Positions 30,488 to 37,694 of a stretch of DNA of 48,851 bases are shown one piece after another. This DNA comes from Fidelibacterota bacterium (GTDB lineage: Bacteria; Fidelibacterota; Marinisomatia; Marinisomatales; UBA1611): contig JABHGY010000108.1 of NCBI GenBank assembly GCA_018671775.1, positions 1 to 48,851 on the forward strand, given 5' to 3'. The notes beneath the pieces are model-generated. The model had not been told where the DNA came from. It did no database searches and saw only the letters and a list, made by a program, of their open reading frames with translations. The first letter of the stretch is position 1, and every line of letters starts with the position of its first letter. Position numbers and translations under genes: made by a program.

Positions 30488-31864
30488 TTATTCCAAATTA
30501 TCCGCTGGCTTTGGACGTTTCCGTGATTTAAAACTTGTGATTGTTAAGCCTAGAGAAAAATTAAATCCACGCATGGTTTGAATCCACATTCCATTACGGA
30601 AGCCAAAACCCAAATCAAAAATAATGGGACCTTTATGAAATCCAAGTCCTAAAGATAATTCTTTCGCATCACCGCCCGCCCAGCTATACCCAAGTCTGAT
30701 CGGAATATTATCTAATTTTGTCCACTCCACTCCAAAAGACCAACGCCATTTTGCTTTCGAGTAATATTCGTTGCTGAACCCCGTAATTAAATCACTGGCT
30801 AAAAGAAATGTTTCCGTTCGTTTCGATACGCCCAAACGAAAAGTAGCTGGATAGCGTGTTACAAAAGGGCGAGCGCTCCCATTTGCAGTGGTATCTTTGA
30901 TAATTTCTGAATGATTATAAAACAAGGAATCTTGTGATAATTTATCCGCACGAAGGGTATCGATGGTATAGGTAAATAAAACCGATTCACTGGGACCCAA
31001 TTCTTCTCCCTGCCACGTAAAAGGATAAATTCCAGGGATGGAAATGCCCGGACCTCCTTCATCTTTTTTGAGCGTTTTATTCCAGGTGATATTGCCTTTC
31101 GCGTTAATGAGAGATGCGCCAAAAGCCCAGCCATCAAATTCTTGGGTAACCACACCAATATCCAAACCCAAACCAGCACCCCCAAATCCTTGGCGTATGA
31201 GATATTTCCCCGAACCGTAAAGCCCTAAATCATCCGTAATCAGGGTCGCTGAAGAACTATCAGAATCGATCCCAAAATAAAAAAGACCTTGAAGATATTT
31301 GACTGTTGCTCCAAATGATAAATTTTTAAATGGAACCGCAAATGTCACGCCATATTCATTTATCCCCAGCATTTCGTAGCCCAAAGTCATATCCAGCTCT
31401 GGTTTATCCGCATTGCCATACATCATCAATTCTAATAGACCTATGGGCAATTTATAATTGGCTAAAAAGATGGCATTTGACGTAAATGCTAAATTTTCAT
31501 ACGCAAAGTTTAAAACAGGAATTGGAAGATGAAAATCTTGGAAAAAAGTGAGTCCACCCGCATCTTGAAATTCTAGAAATAGTTTATCCTTATCTGCAGT
31601 ATAAAGGGTATCACCACTATATTCTGACAGCGTTTCAAATGAAATGAAATTCCCGATCACGCCAGCATCAAACCCAAATAATTGCAATTGAAAAGGTTTA
31701 TCTTGTTGAAACCCAATGAGCGCAGGATTATATCCAACAGAAAATATACCGTCTGCAATTGTTGTATAAGTCCCTGCTAAACCCACAACACGAGGATCTC
31801 GTTTAGTTTGCCCAACTGCAATCGTTAAAACAATCAAAATGAAGATGATACATCTTTTTATCAT
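30488..31864 (-). CDS. Outer-membrane beta-barrel-like protein (PorV/TraF-like or DUF5723-like)
   Basis: Signal peptide then RDPRVVGLAGTYTTIADGIFSVGYNPALIGF; alternating amphipathic C-terminal strands. Confidence 0.55.
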   Translation of the reverse strand: MIKRCIIFILIVLTIAVGQTKRDPRVVGLAGTYTTIADGIFSVGYNPALIGFQQDKPFQLQLFGFDAGVIGNFISFETLSEYSGDTLYTADKDKLFLEFQDAGGLTFFQDFHLPIPVLNFAYENLAFTSNAIFLANYKLPIGLLELMMYGNADKPELDMTLGYEMLGINEYGVTFAVPFKNLSFGATVKYLQGLFYFGIDSDSSSATLITDDLGLYGSGKYLIRQGFGGAGLGLDIGVVTQEFDGWAFGASLINAKGNITWNKTLKKDEGGPGISIPGIYPFTWQGEELGPSESVLFTYTIDTLRADKLSQDSLFYNHSEIIKDTTANGSARPFVTRYPATFRLGVSKRTETFLLASDLITGFSNEYYSKAKWRWSFGVEWTKLDNIPIRLGYSWAGGDAKELSLGLGFHKGPIIFDLGFGFRNGMWIQTMRGFNFSLGLTITSFKSRKRPKPADNLE

Positions 31865-34800
31865 TTGAAAATCCTGCCGTTCTGATTCTTTGCTTTAATA
31901 AAGGATAGGCTTTTTTTATTAACTCGCACAGCATTTGGTCTAATAATAAGATAATATCCATTCATATCTCGAATGGAGCCATCTGAACTAGAAATTCTTA
32001 AACGCACTTTATCATGAGATGTGGGAAAATCAACCGTTGCGCTCAAATCCCAAGTATAAGATGCTAGGTTTTCTGCTTCTGCCACAATAGACGACCAATG
32101 AGCGTCATTGTTAATCTCGGGACTTTCTATGGTGGAATAATCTATATTTATGGTTTCTATATTGCCATAATTTTTCCATAATATCTCGTAGGATTGATCC
32201 GCATACAAGGTATCTCCTCCATTTGGCCAAGTAATCAAAAGCTCATTTGGAGAACTTTCCATCATGCCTGTGCTGCTTAAACGAAAAGTGATGAATGAAT
32301 TGATATCCAAATAATCTGCCGTCGTCATATATACGGATTGACTATCCGTTCCATTCAAATGAAATCTAGGCGCCACATAATGATCACCATAATCTGTTAA
32401 AAGAAAAATACGATTAGAATCCATGGTGCTTAAAAATGTCCCTGTGCCCGCTTCATGCACCATCCCTGGCGGAAAGCCGGAAGAATCGCCTTCGATATAA
32501 TAGCTCACAGGGTCGGGTAAAATAAATTTCCATAGCGTATCCACATAAGAAATCACAGTCTCTGTTCCCGATACAGCTCGGTGGACTAAATAAGGAATGC
32601 CATCCACGCATTCAGAAAAATCTGTCATAACATTAAAAATATAAATATCACTAGTATCTGGATCTAATGCTGAGCATTGGTTCACAATATATATTTCATC
32701 CAAGAGATCCCAGCCTTCTTGAACCACCAAGGAATCTCGGAGCGTGGCTAACATTTCGGCTGTGGTATCATAAGGAAAATAGGATTGATTCGACATCAAA
32801 ATAGATAACTCAGCACCAAAAGGAATCGCATTTATCACATTGGACGTGAGTTCAGCGTGAATGAGAGAATTCCGAATACGATTTCGGTTTTCCGGATCAA
32901 ATTCTGTAATCGGCGTTGGGAGCGCAGAAATAAAAGTCATAGGTGCCATCATCACTTCAAAAGGAGCAACCAATCGGTAAGCACCAGAAATTGCTTTGCC
33001 TACTTCGATGGTACCGCGCCCATCTACTCGTGATTCAGATTCTACCACCAAGCTCACAGGATTAATTGAGAGTAGTTCAATAATGTTTGCGCAATTTTCA
33101 TCTGATGGTACCAGTTGGGACCAAGAGGGAAGACTATCTGATTTCGAATTAAAAATTTGCGTGAGTGTCCCCTCTTTATTCAATTCGATTACAGTCATGG
33201 CCGTATCAATATCATTTATTGGATATCCTATGGAATCCACATTTACACATAAATTAGTTGTATCCCCAAAGGTATCCACACCTTTCATATTGATACTCAA
33301 CATGACAGGTAATTTAATCTGACTATACATGATAAACTGAATACGCACATCTGTCATGGTCATCCCCGTGAGTCCTTGAGGCATATTTTCCATGGATTGT
33401 GTAGAGCTTGGAAAAGCCATAAAAACATAGGCTTCCAGCGATTCAAAACGCATAGAATACATACGGACCTTTAGCCCCAAACCGCCAAGATACTCATCTT
33501 TTAAAGAAATAACGGTTGTTTGCGCTGGAATAGAAACATCTAATCCCAATTCCATTTTATCGATTGCAGAGTCTGGATATTGCGTGCTTTGAAAATTGTA
33601 TCCTTTTAAATCAAAATCACGATTAATCACATTTCCTGTTGAAAGCGCAGTATCAATCAAAACCGAATCAGACCCAAGAGGTGGAACAAAATTTTGAAAA
33701 TTGATGCGAAAGTTAATATCAAAGGGAAACGTGCTTTCCAAATCAGAAATAGTCAGGCGATTGGCCGTATTATCAATGCCCTCTGTTTTGAGTGTTGCCT
33801 GAAAAAGAGACAGGCTGGTTTCACCACCATCATCACCTCCTTGTGCTGGAAAACTCATATCAGGTTTTGGAATATCTAATACCGTCTCTAAAATATTTAC
33901 CTCAGCAGAATCCAAAGTGGGGATATTCAGATTAAGAATTAGATTGACTAACATAGAATCATTGGCCGGAATTACAACCGTTTCGCCACTGGCCACATCA
34001 GCAGAATCCAACTTGAAACCAAGATTAATTTTGATTTTTTCTTTTAACCGTTTTCCTAGAAGAAGCGTGGTATCCGTATATGAAATATTACTACCAATCG
34101 TCGGGCTTGTCTCATGCTGTGCTAAGGTATCATTCGTTAAAACGGCTCCCGTAAAAAGTCCAGATTGTGCTTGAATCAAATCTTTGGGAATCCTTTGGTT
34201 TGCAATAGATGTAATAAATTGTGCTAGATTGATATCATCATCACCCATAACCAAAGCATTGATACTTTCCACAATTTGAGGGTCACTCGCCAGATCAATA
34301 TCACTAAAACCTAAATTTAATTCTACGAGTGCTTCGGTGAGAATCGAATCAACAGCCGTATTAAAAACATTCACAATGAAATTCCATGTTTCAGCTGTTA
34401 TTGTTCGATCTACTGCTGGAGGCATATAGAATGTCGCAGCCGACCAAGTGGCTGGATTTGCTTCAACATAAGTATTATCAAAATAAGGTCCATTGGAACC
34501 AGCCTCATAACTCACGACGGGCAAACTCATATTAATAGGAGAGACTGGAATTTCAAATGTGCTTAAATCTACGCCAGGTATTGGCGTCGCTGGAATATCA
34601 GTATCAAGATAACCACCATCAAAATCTACCTTCAAATTATCGTCATCAATGGCTTGAGACGGCAATTCTCCTTCAAAAATTAACTCCATTCCTAAACTGT
34701 CATCACGATTAAAGATGTTGACACTATCCACAATTCCATCAAGAGAATACCGGGTTTGGACTAATGGAATCTTGATATCGATAAACCAAGTGGGCTTTTC

Positions 34801-34917
34801 GAATTTCTCGGTTTTCTCAAAATCGCAAGCACTCAAGAGGAATAAGGCTAAAAGGCCACTGAAATAAAAAATACTTAAATATTTTTTATCAGGTCTATTT
34901 CTCGGATGATTTTTCAT
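31861..34917 (-). CDS. Large (1018 aa) lipoprotein with C-terminal Kre9/KNH-like module
   Basis: Lipobox LFLLSACDFEK; C-term LLITWPNGGDTLYADQSYEILWKNYGNIETINIDYS...VRLRISSSDG. Confidence 0.6.
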   Translation of the reverse strand: MKNHPRNRPDKKYLSIFYFSGLLALFLLSACDFEKTEKFEKPTWFIDIKIPLVQTRYSLDGIVDSVNIFNRDDSLGMELIFEGELPSQAIDDDNLKVDFDGGYLDTDIPATPIPGVDLSTFEIPVSPINMSLPVVSYEAGSNGPYFDNTYVEANPATWSAATFYMPPAVDRTITAETWNFIVNVFNTAVDSILTEALVELNLGFSDIDLASDPQIVESINALVMGDDDINLAQFITSIANQRIPKDLIQAQSGLFTGAVLTNDTLAQHETSPTIGSNISYTDTTLLLGKRLKEKIKINLGFKLDSADVASGETVVIPANDSMLVNLILNLNIPTLDSAEVNILETVLDIPKPDMSFPAQGGDDGGETSLSLFQATLKTEGIDNTANRLTISDLESTFPFDINFRINFQNFVPPLGSDSVLIDTALSTGNVINRDFDLKGYNFQSTQYPDSAIDKMELGLDVSIPAQTTVISLKDEYLGGLGLKVRMYSMRFESLEAYVFMAFPSSTQSMENMPQGLTGMTMTDVRIQFIMYSQIKLPVMLSINMKGVDTFGDTTNLCVNVDSIGYPINDIDTAMTVIELNKEGTLTQIFNSKSDSLPSWSQLVPSDENCANIIELLSINPVSLVVESESRVDGRGTIEVGKAISGAYRLVAPFEVMMAPMTFISALPTPITEFDPENRNRIRNSLIHAELTSNVINAIPFGAELSILMSNQSYFPYDTTAEMLATLRDSLVVQEGWDLLDEIYIVNQCSALDPDTSDIYIFNVMTDFSECVDGIPYLVHRAVSGTETVISYVDTLWKFILPDPVSYYIEGDSSGFPPGMVHEAGTGTFLSTMDSNRIFLLTDYGDHYVAPRFHLNGTDSQSVYMTTADYLDINSFITFRLSSTGMMESSPNELLITWPNGGDTLYADQSYEILWKNYGNIETINIDYSTIESPEINNDAHWSSIVAEAENLASYTWDLSATVDFPTSHDKVRLRISSSDGSIRDMNGYYLIIRPNAVRVNKKSLSFIKAKNQNGRIFK

Positions 34918-35027: not shown

Positions 35028-36413
35028 CTAATATCGATAATCGTCTGGCTTATATGGACCTTCGATTGTCACATTAATATACTCGGCTTGTGCTTCTGTC
35101 AATTGCGTTAATACACCACCAAAACCCTTCACCATACCTGAAGCAACTTCTTCATCCAATCTTTTGGGAAGTACTTCAACCGTAATTTTGGATACTTTTT
35201 CATCAGAAGATAAATTAGCAAATTTTGCATCAAATAAATGTATTTGAGCTAATACTTGATTTGCAAATGAACCGTCCATAATCCGAGATGGGTGCCCTGT
35301 CGCATTGCCCAAATTAACCAATCGACCCTCGGATAAAAGGATGAGATAGTTGTTTTTGTCATCACTTCTAAAGATGCGATGAACTTGCGGTTTTACCTCA
35401 TTCCACTCCCAGTTATCGCGCATAAATTTCGTATCGATTTCATTATCAAAATGTCCAATATTACAAACCACTGCTCCACTTTTTAACGTTTCCAACATGG
35501 AACGATCACACACATTTACATTGCCAGTCGTCGTAACAATTAAATCTGTTTTAGACAATAAATCTGTATTGATACCCTCTATGGTTCCTGTGTTAATTCC
35601 ATTTTTGTAAGGAGAAATAACTTCATATCCATCCATACATGCTTGCATAGCACAAATAGGATCAATTTCACTAATGCGAACAATCATACCTTCTTGTCTC
35701 AGAGACTGAGCGGATCCTTTCCCCACATCACCATAGCCAATAACTAAAGCTTTTTTGCCAGACAACAACATATCTGTCCCTCGCTTAATCGCATCATTGA
35801 GCGAATGACGACATCCATATTTATTATCATTTTTGGATTTGGTCACAGAATCATTTACATTAATAACGGGCACTTTAAGCGAACCTTTTTGAAGCATTTC
35901 CAAAAGACGATGGACACCTGTTGTTGTTTCTTCACTAATTCCATGGATATTGTCTAAGATTTCAGGATATTTCTCGTGCAACATTTGCGTTAAATCACCC
36001 CCATCATCCAAAACCATATTCGCTTCCCACGGCTTCCCATCCTTGAGAATCGTTTGCTCAATGCACCATAAAAATTCTTCTTCCGTTTCACCTTTCCATG
36101 CAAATGTTGCAATATCGGCAGCGACCATTGCGGCAGCGGCATGATCTTGCGTAGAGAATATATTGCAGGATGACCATCGGACTTTTGCACCCAAATCAAT
36201 CAAAGTTTCCATCAAGACAGCGGTTTGAATTGTCATATGAATACATCCCAATATATTCGCACCTGCCAAAGGTTGTTCGCTTTTGTATTTTTCACGTAGC
36301 GTCATTAAAGCAGGCATTTCTGCTTCCGCTAGTTCTATTTCTTTTCGACCATAATCAGCCAAAGTAAGATCGGCTACTTTATAATCATTATTATCGATGG
36401 TTGGATTGTTCAT
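35028..36413 (-). CDS. ahcY: Adenosylhomocysteinase
   Basis: [56 protein letters not shown]-term KPDDYRY. Start re-set to ATG 36413 because GGAG precedes it. Confidence 0.97.
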
Positions 36414-36444
36414 TTTATTCTCCATTTTTGTTGCTAATCAAAAT

Positions 36445-36501
36445 GAACGCCGTTTTAATTCGCCAAGCCTCTTGGATATATCCAATGCAACGTTCCTTGG
36501 C
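36445..36501 (-). promoter_or_regulatory. SAH riboswitch (ahcY RNA motif-like) in the 5' leader of ahcY
   Basis: Minus strand: GCCAAGGAACGTTGCATTGGATATATCCAAGAGGCTTGGCGAATTAAAACGGCGTTC. P1 GCCAAG/CTTGGC, P2 TTGGA-TATA-TCCAA, pseudoknot GAACG/CGTTC; conserved GG-nnCG-TTGC, AGGCT, AACGGCG. Confidence 0.88.
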
Positions 36502-36518
36502 AATTCAAGTTTATATAT

Positions 36519-37694
36519 CTATAAATATTGTTTTAATTTTTCTACCATATCTGTTTTTTCCCAAGTGAATGAATCTAGCTCTCGTCCAAAATGACCATAG
36601 GCCGCCGTTTGGCGATATCGTGGATGTTTCAATTTTAGATGAGAAATAATTGCACCCGGTTTGAGTGGGAAATTTTCTTTGACCAATGCTGTAAGTTTTT
36701 CATCAGACATTTTTCCTGTTCCAAATGATTGAACGAGTAAAGAAGTAGGTTCAGCAACACCAATGCCGTAAGATAATTGCACCTCACATTTATCTGCCAA
36801 ACCAGAAGCCACAATATTTTTTGCAATATAGCGTGCCATATAAGTTGCTGACCGATCTACTTTAGACGGATCTTTCCCTGAAAAAGCACCACCGCCATGA
36901 GGCGCATAACCACCGTAAGTATCCACAATAATTTTTCTTCCTGTTAGCCCCGTATCTGCCGCTGGACCGCCATGGACAAATCGTCCCGTTCCATTAACAA
37001 TAAATTCTTTTTCATAGGGATAATCATATTTATCTAAAACGGGTAAAATGATATGCTGAATTACTTCTTTCTTCACAAAAGCATTTTCTGCCTCTTCCGT
37101 TCCAAATTTTCCTAACATATCTTCGTGTTGAGTTGCAATCACAACTTGAGAAATAGATGTGGGTTGTCCATCCACATATTTCACGGAAACCTGAGATTTA
37201 CCATCTGGACGAAGCCAAGACAACGTTCCATCTTTTCGTAATTCGGTTAATTTCTCTGTCAAGCGATGGGCCATTTGAATCGGCAAAGGCATCAATTCTG
37301 GTGTTTCCTTACAAGCAAAACCAAACATAAGTCCTTGATCGCCAGCGCCTTGCTCTTCATCATTCCCTTGACTTACACCTTGGGATATTTCTTTGGATTG
37401 GGGTTGAATGGCTGAAATCACTTTCACCGTTTCTTGATTCATCCCTTTTGTATAATCATCATAGCCAATCTCATTTAAGGTGTTTTTAACAATACGATCT
37501 ACGTCAACAAATCCATCCGTAGTGATTTCACCCGCAACTACGACCATTTCTTTTGTTGCTAAAGTCTCACACGCCACACGAGATTCGGAATCTTGTTCTA
37601 ATAAATTGTCTAAGATCGCATCGGATATGGCATCACAAACTTTGTCTGGATGACCTTCGGTTACGGATTCTGATGTAAAATAATATTCGCTCAT
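36519..37694 (-). CDS. metK: S-adenosylmethionine synthetase
   Basis: FTSESVTEGHPDKVCDAISDAILD; GAGDQGLMFGFA; GGPAADTGLTGRKIIVDTYGG; GGGAFSGKDPSKVDRSA. Confidence 0.97.
   Translation of the reverse strand: MSEYYFTSESVTEGHPDKVCDAISDAILDNLLEQDSESRVACETLATKEMVVVAGEITTDGFVDVDRIVKNTLNEIGYDDYTKGMNQETVKVISAIQPQSKEISQGVSQGNDEEQGAGDQGLMFGFACKETPELMPLPIQMAHRLTEKLTELRKDGTLSWLRPDGKSQVSVKYVDGQPTSISQVVIATQHEDMLGKFGTEEAENAFVKKEVIQHIILPVLDKYDYPYEKEFIVNGTGRFVHGGPAADTGLTGRKIIVDTYGGYAPHGGGAFSGKDPSKVDRSATYMARYIAKNIVASGLADKCEVQLSYGIGVAEPTSLLVQSFGTGKMSDEKLTALVKENFPLKPGAIISHLKLKHPRYRQTAAYGHFGRELDSFTWEKTDMVEKLKQYL

Follow-up and report, generated by a model that had tools for sequence, protein, structure and literature searches.

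An SAH riboswitch between metK and ahcY in Neomarinimicrobiota: apparent horizontal transfer with ahcY and proposed control by start-codon sequestering

The RNA encoded between metK and ahcY in a marine bacterium of the phylum Neomarinimicrobiota is probably a genuine SAH riboswitch that was transferred together with ahcY and that controls the translation of ahcY inside the metK-ahcY operon by sequestering its AUG start codon. It lies on the minus strand of the window, by which the whole stretch of 48,851 nucleotides analysed here (contig JABHGY010000108.1) is meant. The host had been described as FCB-like from the sequence alone, which is confirmed by NCBI taxonomy, where Neomarinimicrobiota are listed as Fidelibacterota in the FCB group.

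The aptamer and its place in the operon

With respect to structured RNAs, a cmscan search of the whole window with all Rfam 15 families yields a single match reaching the gathering cut-off, namely to the SAH riboswitch family RF01057 at positions 36504-36438 of the minus strand. Its score of 45.7 bits compares with a gathering cut-off of 37, the E-value over all Rfam is 2.3e-5, and the match covers model positions 1-78 completely; genome-wide, RF01057 is present in one copy only (E = 2.1e-7). The minus-strand sequence quoted in the original prediction was indeed found at 36445-36501, and its assignment to the SAH riboswitch class is supported by the covariance-model score, the structure, the place before ahcY and the conservation in relatives. 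As is the rule for RF01057, the aptamer stands directly before a gene of the SAM cycle, here ahcY, and together with a short leader it fills the entire gap from the metK stop at 36519 to the ahcY start at 36413, as had been proposed. The features of the locus are the following:

36519-37694, minus strand: metK (S-adenosylmethionine synthetase), native, ending 14 nt before the aptamer (Pfam S-AdoMet_synt N/M/C; MetK tree)
36438-36504, minus strand: SAH riboswitch aptamer, RF01057 (cmscan, 45.7 bits, E 2.3e-5)
36497-36503, minus strand: P1 5' arm UUGCCAA (Rfam alignment; covaries in relatives)
36460-36466, minus strand: P1 3' arm UUGGCGA (Rfam alignment; covaries in relatives)
36491-36495, minus strand: pseudoknot 5' strand GAACG (sequence; pair 3 is G-C, G-U or A-U across relatives)
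36445-36449, minus strand: pseudoknot 3' strand CGUUC, also the first half of the proposed anti-start strand (sequence; pairing in relatives)
36481-36485, minus strand: P2 5' arm UUGGA (sequence and fold)
36472-36476, minus strand: P2 3' arm UCCAA (sequence and fold)
36471, minus strand: G where the Rfam consensus and all other extracted sequences have C (Rfam alignment; extracted leaders)
36440-36448, minus strand: proposed anti-start strand GUUCAUUUU in the absence of SAH, sharing bases with the pseudoknot 3' strand (MFE fold; pairing counts)
36420-36423, minus strand: Shine-Dalgarno-like GGAG (sequence)
36408-36416, minus strand: AAAAUGAAC, the ahcY start codon (36413-36411) and codon 2, proposed partner of the anti-start strand (fold; pairing counts)
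35028-36413, minus strand: ahcY (S-adenosylhomocysteine hydrolase) of the gamma/SUP05 type (Pfam AdoHcyase; AhcY trees)
31861-34917, minus strand: 1018-aa gene, native, right edge of the replaced segment (tblastn)

The helices that had been read from the letters alone are borne out. P2 forms between UUGGA (36485-36481) and UCCAA (36476-36472), and the pseudoknot between GAACG (36495-36491) and CGUUC (36449-36445). P1, given originally as GCCAAG/CTTGGC, is present as a helix, but its pairing frame has to be shifted slightly, the Rfam alignment pairing UUGCCAA with UUGGCGA. The conserved core residues GGA.CG, UGC, AGGCU and AACGRCG are found in the window, with the exception of G36471 just before AGGCU, where a C would be expected and where the change might weaken ligand binding. 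Judged by its family, the RNA of the window is taken to be a genuine SAH riboswitch, and it presumably binds SAH, for which the family has a strong preference over SAM. An alternative in-frame ATG of ahcY lies upstream at 36425, overlapping the Shine-Dalgarno-like sequence, and is missing in some relatives. For the 1018-aa protein (31861-34917, minus strand) no Pfam family was found; its gene keeps its place immediately after ahcY throughout the Neomarinimicrobiota order.

Conservation and covariation in relatives

The riboswitch scores above the RF01057 cut-off in 7 of 245 genomes of the phylum including that of the window, all seven belonging to one family and two genera; of the 83 SUP05-order genomes, 62 carry it above that threshold. 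Across the seven diverged Neomarinimicrobiota genomes the aptamer core is invariant, while P2 and the linkers vary. When P1, the pseudoknot and the start region of 27 distinct sequences (7 from Neomarinimicrobiota and 20 from gammaproteobacteria, the latter drawn from the SUP05 order) are aligned gap-free, P1 and the pseudoknot are paired in 99.6% of cells, with four pairs altered on both sides. Shuffled alignments reach 96.4 +/- 0.5%, none of 500 being as high as the observed value, and pairing falls to only 22-34% when the partner is slid by one to three columns. P2 was seen in the folds; its register varies between sequences, and the count covers P1 and the pseudoknot.

The pairing of P1 and of the pseudoknot is thus not lost in close relatives but kept, and it covaries. 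At the third pseudoknot pair, the SUP05 order has G-C and three relatives have G-U, and A-U is seen in the window and in three further relatives; the change is stepwise and, as the original prediction had held, compensatory.

Proposed control of ahcY translation

Together, the pseudoknot 3' strand and the U-run following it make up the strand GUUCAUUUU, whose reverse complement is AAAAUGAAC at the start of ahcY. For each of the 35 leaders tested, minimum-energy folding buries the start codon in the resulting anti-start helix, and the mean probability of the AUG being unpaired is 0.003 in the free fold versus 0.56 in a bound-like fold, for which P1 was fixed and the pseudoknot strands were barred from pairing, the energy of the pseudoknot lying outside the calculation. 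For the window the respective values are 0.001 and 0.97, and some gammaproteobacterial leaders release their AUG only in part under the bound-like constraints. When the starts of the 41 other genes of the window are used as a null set, the window value is reached by 1 of 41 swapped-in gene starts and by 0 of 100 linker shuffles, and in the other six genomes the value is reached by 0-4 of 41 swapped gene starts and 0-7 of 100 linker shuffles. The energy of the anti-start duplex taken alone is less striking, as that of the window is reached by 2 of the 41 other gene starts.

In the alignment of 27 sequences the sequestering helix is paired in 100% of cells, and it is kept in all seven Neomarinimicrobiota. 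Moreover, codon 2 changes from AGC or AGU to AAC where the pseudoknot strand changes from GCUC to GUUC, so that three strands have moved together, although probably in one evolutionary event.

Under the mechanism proposed here, as long as SAH is absent the anti-start strand (pseudoknot 3' strand plus U-run) would be base-paired with the beginning of ahcY, masking the AUG. Upon binding of SAH the GAACG/CGUUC pseudoknot would form and use up the anti-start strand, and the freed AUG would permit translation of ahcY and hence production of SAH hydrolase, so that the element would act as an ON switch. The predicted folds fit such a switch, and an expression raised by SAH is what they predict; this agrees with the activation of ahcY by SAH riboswitches as reported in the passage of PMC7057144 that cites Wang 2008. 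Since metK would lie outside the control of the riboswitch, the synthesis of SAM would be unswitched and the removal of SAH switched. A switch located between metK and ahcY also agrees with the situation in Proteobacteria, where metK is not controlled by SAH riboswitches (PMC4239095). If the proposed platform is right, the choice of codons at the beginning of AhcY is constrained by RNA pairing.

That a real aptamer acts here at the level of transcription, the pseudoknot strand and U residues or some control of readthrough ending or continuing the metK-ahcY transcript, is unlikely. Although a U-rich stretch directly follows the pseudoknot, no terminator-like hairpin with a T-run was found in the leader, and the hairpin that is predicted contains the start codon itself with no U-run after it. 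Besides, a pseudoknot serving as terminator would lower ahcY expression, in contrast to the rise for which PMC7057144 cites Wang 2008.

Two loci of the SUP05 order, L216 and L223, have a longer leader without the simple anti-start arrangement. More generally, the ahcY leader following the aptamer is long in three loci, L216, L223 and L230 (about 155 nt as measured in L230), and another expression platform is therefore likely there.

Promoter elements and the question of decay

In the SUP05 order (L193-L225), 29 of 31 leaders have the hexamer TATAAT some 9 nt upstream of P1, so that the aptamer probably has a transcription start of its own at this site. This TATAAT is often an extended -10 element (TGGTATAAT) and in several of these leaders it lies within a short inverted repeat, e.g. 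GAAGGTATAATCACCTTC.

None of the seven Neomarinimicrobiota leaders has a TATAAT before the aptamer, and ahcY is therefore probably transcribed from the metK side. A promoter of its own between metK and the aptamer, in the manner of the SUP05 order, is not supported: near-matches to the hexamer would turn up by chance in DNA this rich in A+T, and promoter calling gave no site in this interval.

That the upstream promoter element has been lost (0 of 7 leaders, against 29 of 31 in the SUP05 order) might also be read as a sign that the riboswitch only came along with ahcY and is now decaying, with no SAH binding or switching left to it in this species; ahcY would then just be expressed as part of the metK operon. 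The Rfam scores, which are 37-46 bits in Neomarinimicrobiota versus up to 62 in the best gammaproteobacterial members, and the C-to-G change at 36471 would fit this explanation as well. However, decay would leave neither core positions invariant in seven diverged genomes, nor pseudoknot changes that preserve pairing, nor an anti-start helix retained in all seven, and it is accordingly considered improbable.

Origin of riboswitch and ahcY by horizontal transfer

The AhcY protein of the window is 82-84% identical to that of Thioglobus, of a Bathymodiolus thiotrophic symbiont and of other gammaproteobacteria (SUP05 type), whereas its identity with the AhcY of family and order members devoid of the riboswitch is no more than about 46-59%, and AhcY of the SUP05/Thioglobus type, at roughly 83% identity to the gammaproteobacterial proteins, is encoded in all seven riboswitch-bearing genomes of the phylum. 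In the AhcY tree these seven join the SUP05 lineage with 99% SH-aLRT support, far from the native AhcY clade, and in a larger AhcY tree the group of the SUP05 order and the seven is supported at 100/99. The MetK tree, in turn, places all seven inside Neomarinimicrobiota (100% SH-aLRT), fully supported branches splitting them off from the gammaproteobacterial MetK, to which MetK of the window is about 56% identical. Also the 1018-aa gene downstream is native and, according to tblastn, syntenic in relatives with and without the riboswitch. In native operons lacking the riboswitch, metK and ahcY overlap or stand a few nt apart.

A gamma-type ahcY flanked by a native metK and a native downstream gene implies that a segment consisting of riboswitch and ahcY has replaced the resident ahcY in place. 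From the sequence comparisons, the riboswitch seems to have come with ahcY from a SUP05-like, i.e. sulfur-oxidising, gammaproteobacterium by horizontal transfer. The direction from gammaproteobacteria to Neomarinimicrobiota is indicated by other gammaproteobacteria forming the sister group and by the divergence of the native AhcY in the rest of the phylum. The metK-ahcY gene order that both sides share, and that is frequent in the donor lineages, may have helped the recombination. Vertical inheritance from an ancestor within the phylum is ruled out by the absence of the riboswitch from 238 of the 245 genomes and by the AhcY tree. The extension of the range beyond Proteobacteria and Actinobacteria, raised in the original prediction as a possibility, is therefore real, has come about via horizontal transfer of riboswitch and ahcY, and is limited to 7 of 245 genomes.

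SUP05 bacteria and Neomarinimicrobiota co-occur in oxygen-minimum waters and both AhcY and the riboswitch are gamma-like, but contamination or an assembly chimera from a SUP05-type gammaproteobacterium is rejected as largely refuted and extremely improbable, given that a native metK lies on one side in 7 of 7 genomes from two genera, that the native downstream gene was detected in 6 of 7 (contig G009 ends just after ahcY), and that the AhcY proteins of the seven are 85-87% mutually identical and fall outside the sampled SUP05 clade.

As to the subsequent spread, the two riboswitch-bearing genera are placed apart in the rpoB tree, and G029 has kept a native ahcY though it belongs to the same genus as four of the riboswitch bearers. 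The cassette must therefore have either moved within the family or entered more than once; a test for a single clade of the seven in the AhcY tree neither supports nor rejects such a clade (p-AU 0.507). In the MetK tree, the protein of G018 (L148), a genome placed in genus g8, falls with that of genus g1 at 100% support, and metK may therefore have travelled between genera together with riboswitch and ahcY.

A phage vector was considered as well and rejected, the exact core pattern having no match in viral contigs. Spread to Krumholzibacteriota was likewise dismissed, because L074 has a gamma-like AhcY without riboswitch and none was detected in 80 genomes, which does not prove absence. AhcY of L074 and also of L030 and L032 (Nitrospirales) groups with gammaproteobacterial AhcY at loci devoid of an SAH riboswitch, and transfer of ahcY thus seems to happen without the riboswitch, too.

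A second copy before metF

Four genomes of the SUP05 order (loci L226-L229 of G255, G261, G264 and G272) have an additional SAH riboswitch, which precedes metF (Pfam MTHFR). These copies retain the ahcY start codon, and 23-39 codons from the ahcY N-terminus survive there as a small reading frame whose end lies close to where metF begins; their AUG is likewise buried, with an unpaired probability of 0.001-0.005. The retention of the ahcY start suggests that the switch includes the first codons, and that riboswitch and ahcY start were copied before metF as one unit.

Whether all these observations describe a single mobile cassette is evenly balanced. Such a cassette would include the first ahcY codons, with the pseudoknot strand alternating between aptamer and start codon, and would have passed from a SUP05-like donor to Neomarinimicrobiota and then between genera of one family, by replacement of ahcY in metK-ahcY operons, leaving only ahcY responsive to SAH. 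In the SUP05 order it would have been copied before metF with the truncated ahcY as a leader peptide.

Comparison with known systems

The window RNA shares with RF01057 the helices P1 and P2, the pseudoknot of the GAGCG/CGCUC type, the UGC, AGGCU and AACGGCG positions and the place before ahcY. It differs from the family in that the third pseudoknot pair is A-U and not G-C, in a very short P2 loop and in the G for C before AGGCU, as well as in its location between metK and ahcY and in its occurrence in Neomarinimicrobiota. The range given for SAH riboswitches comprises beta- and gamma-Proteobacteria and Mycobacteriaceae (PMC4239095, PMC3766115), and no report of an SAH riboswitch in Neomarinimicrobiota was found in the literature searched. 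A well-characterised riboswitch class is thereby extended to an FCB phylum, the recipients being uncultured marine bacteria.

The closest AhcY proteins are found with the SAH riboswitches of the SUP05/Thioglobus order (L008, L010, L011 and others), which have the same compact leader and start-codon sequestering fold and, wherever metK is on the contig, the same position between metK and ahcY. However, theirs carry TATAAT (29 of 31), GCUC in the pseudoknot and AGC or AGU as codon 2, whereas those of Neomarinimicrobiota have no TATAAT, GUUC and AAC. For such compact SAH riboswitches a simple and testable platform is proposed, in which the pseudoknot strand doubles as anti-start strand and the first ahcY codons are part of the switch; modelled from folds, this platform would be new in a comparison made against literature other than the original class papers (Wang 2008, Edwards 2010).

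The SAM-Chlorobi motif RF01724 likewise belongs to the FCB group and is linked to metK-ahcY operons, but it is a different motif located before the operon, and preliminary probing saw no binding of SAM or SAH (PMC2864571); it has no match in the window, where only RF01057 reaches the gathering cut-off.

That riboswitch families are transferred horizontally is accepted (PMC3766115, PMC4239095). In Thermotogales, according to the passage of PMC3766115 that cites this case, a lysine riboswitch was acquired horizontally with its biosynthetic operon, which resembles the present case in that a riboswitch was acquired together with its genes. As described in that passage, however, the unit was an operon with its riboswitch, while here the resident orthologue in a native operon gave way to a single gene together with its riboswitch. 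The riboswitch class is thus known, and what is new is the phylum and the replacement in place, which shows one way for a riboswitch to spread, namely carried along by a gene exchanged within a conserved operon.
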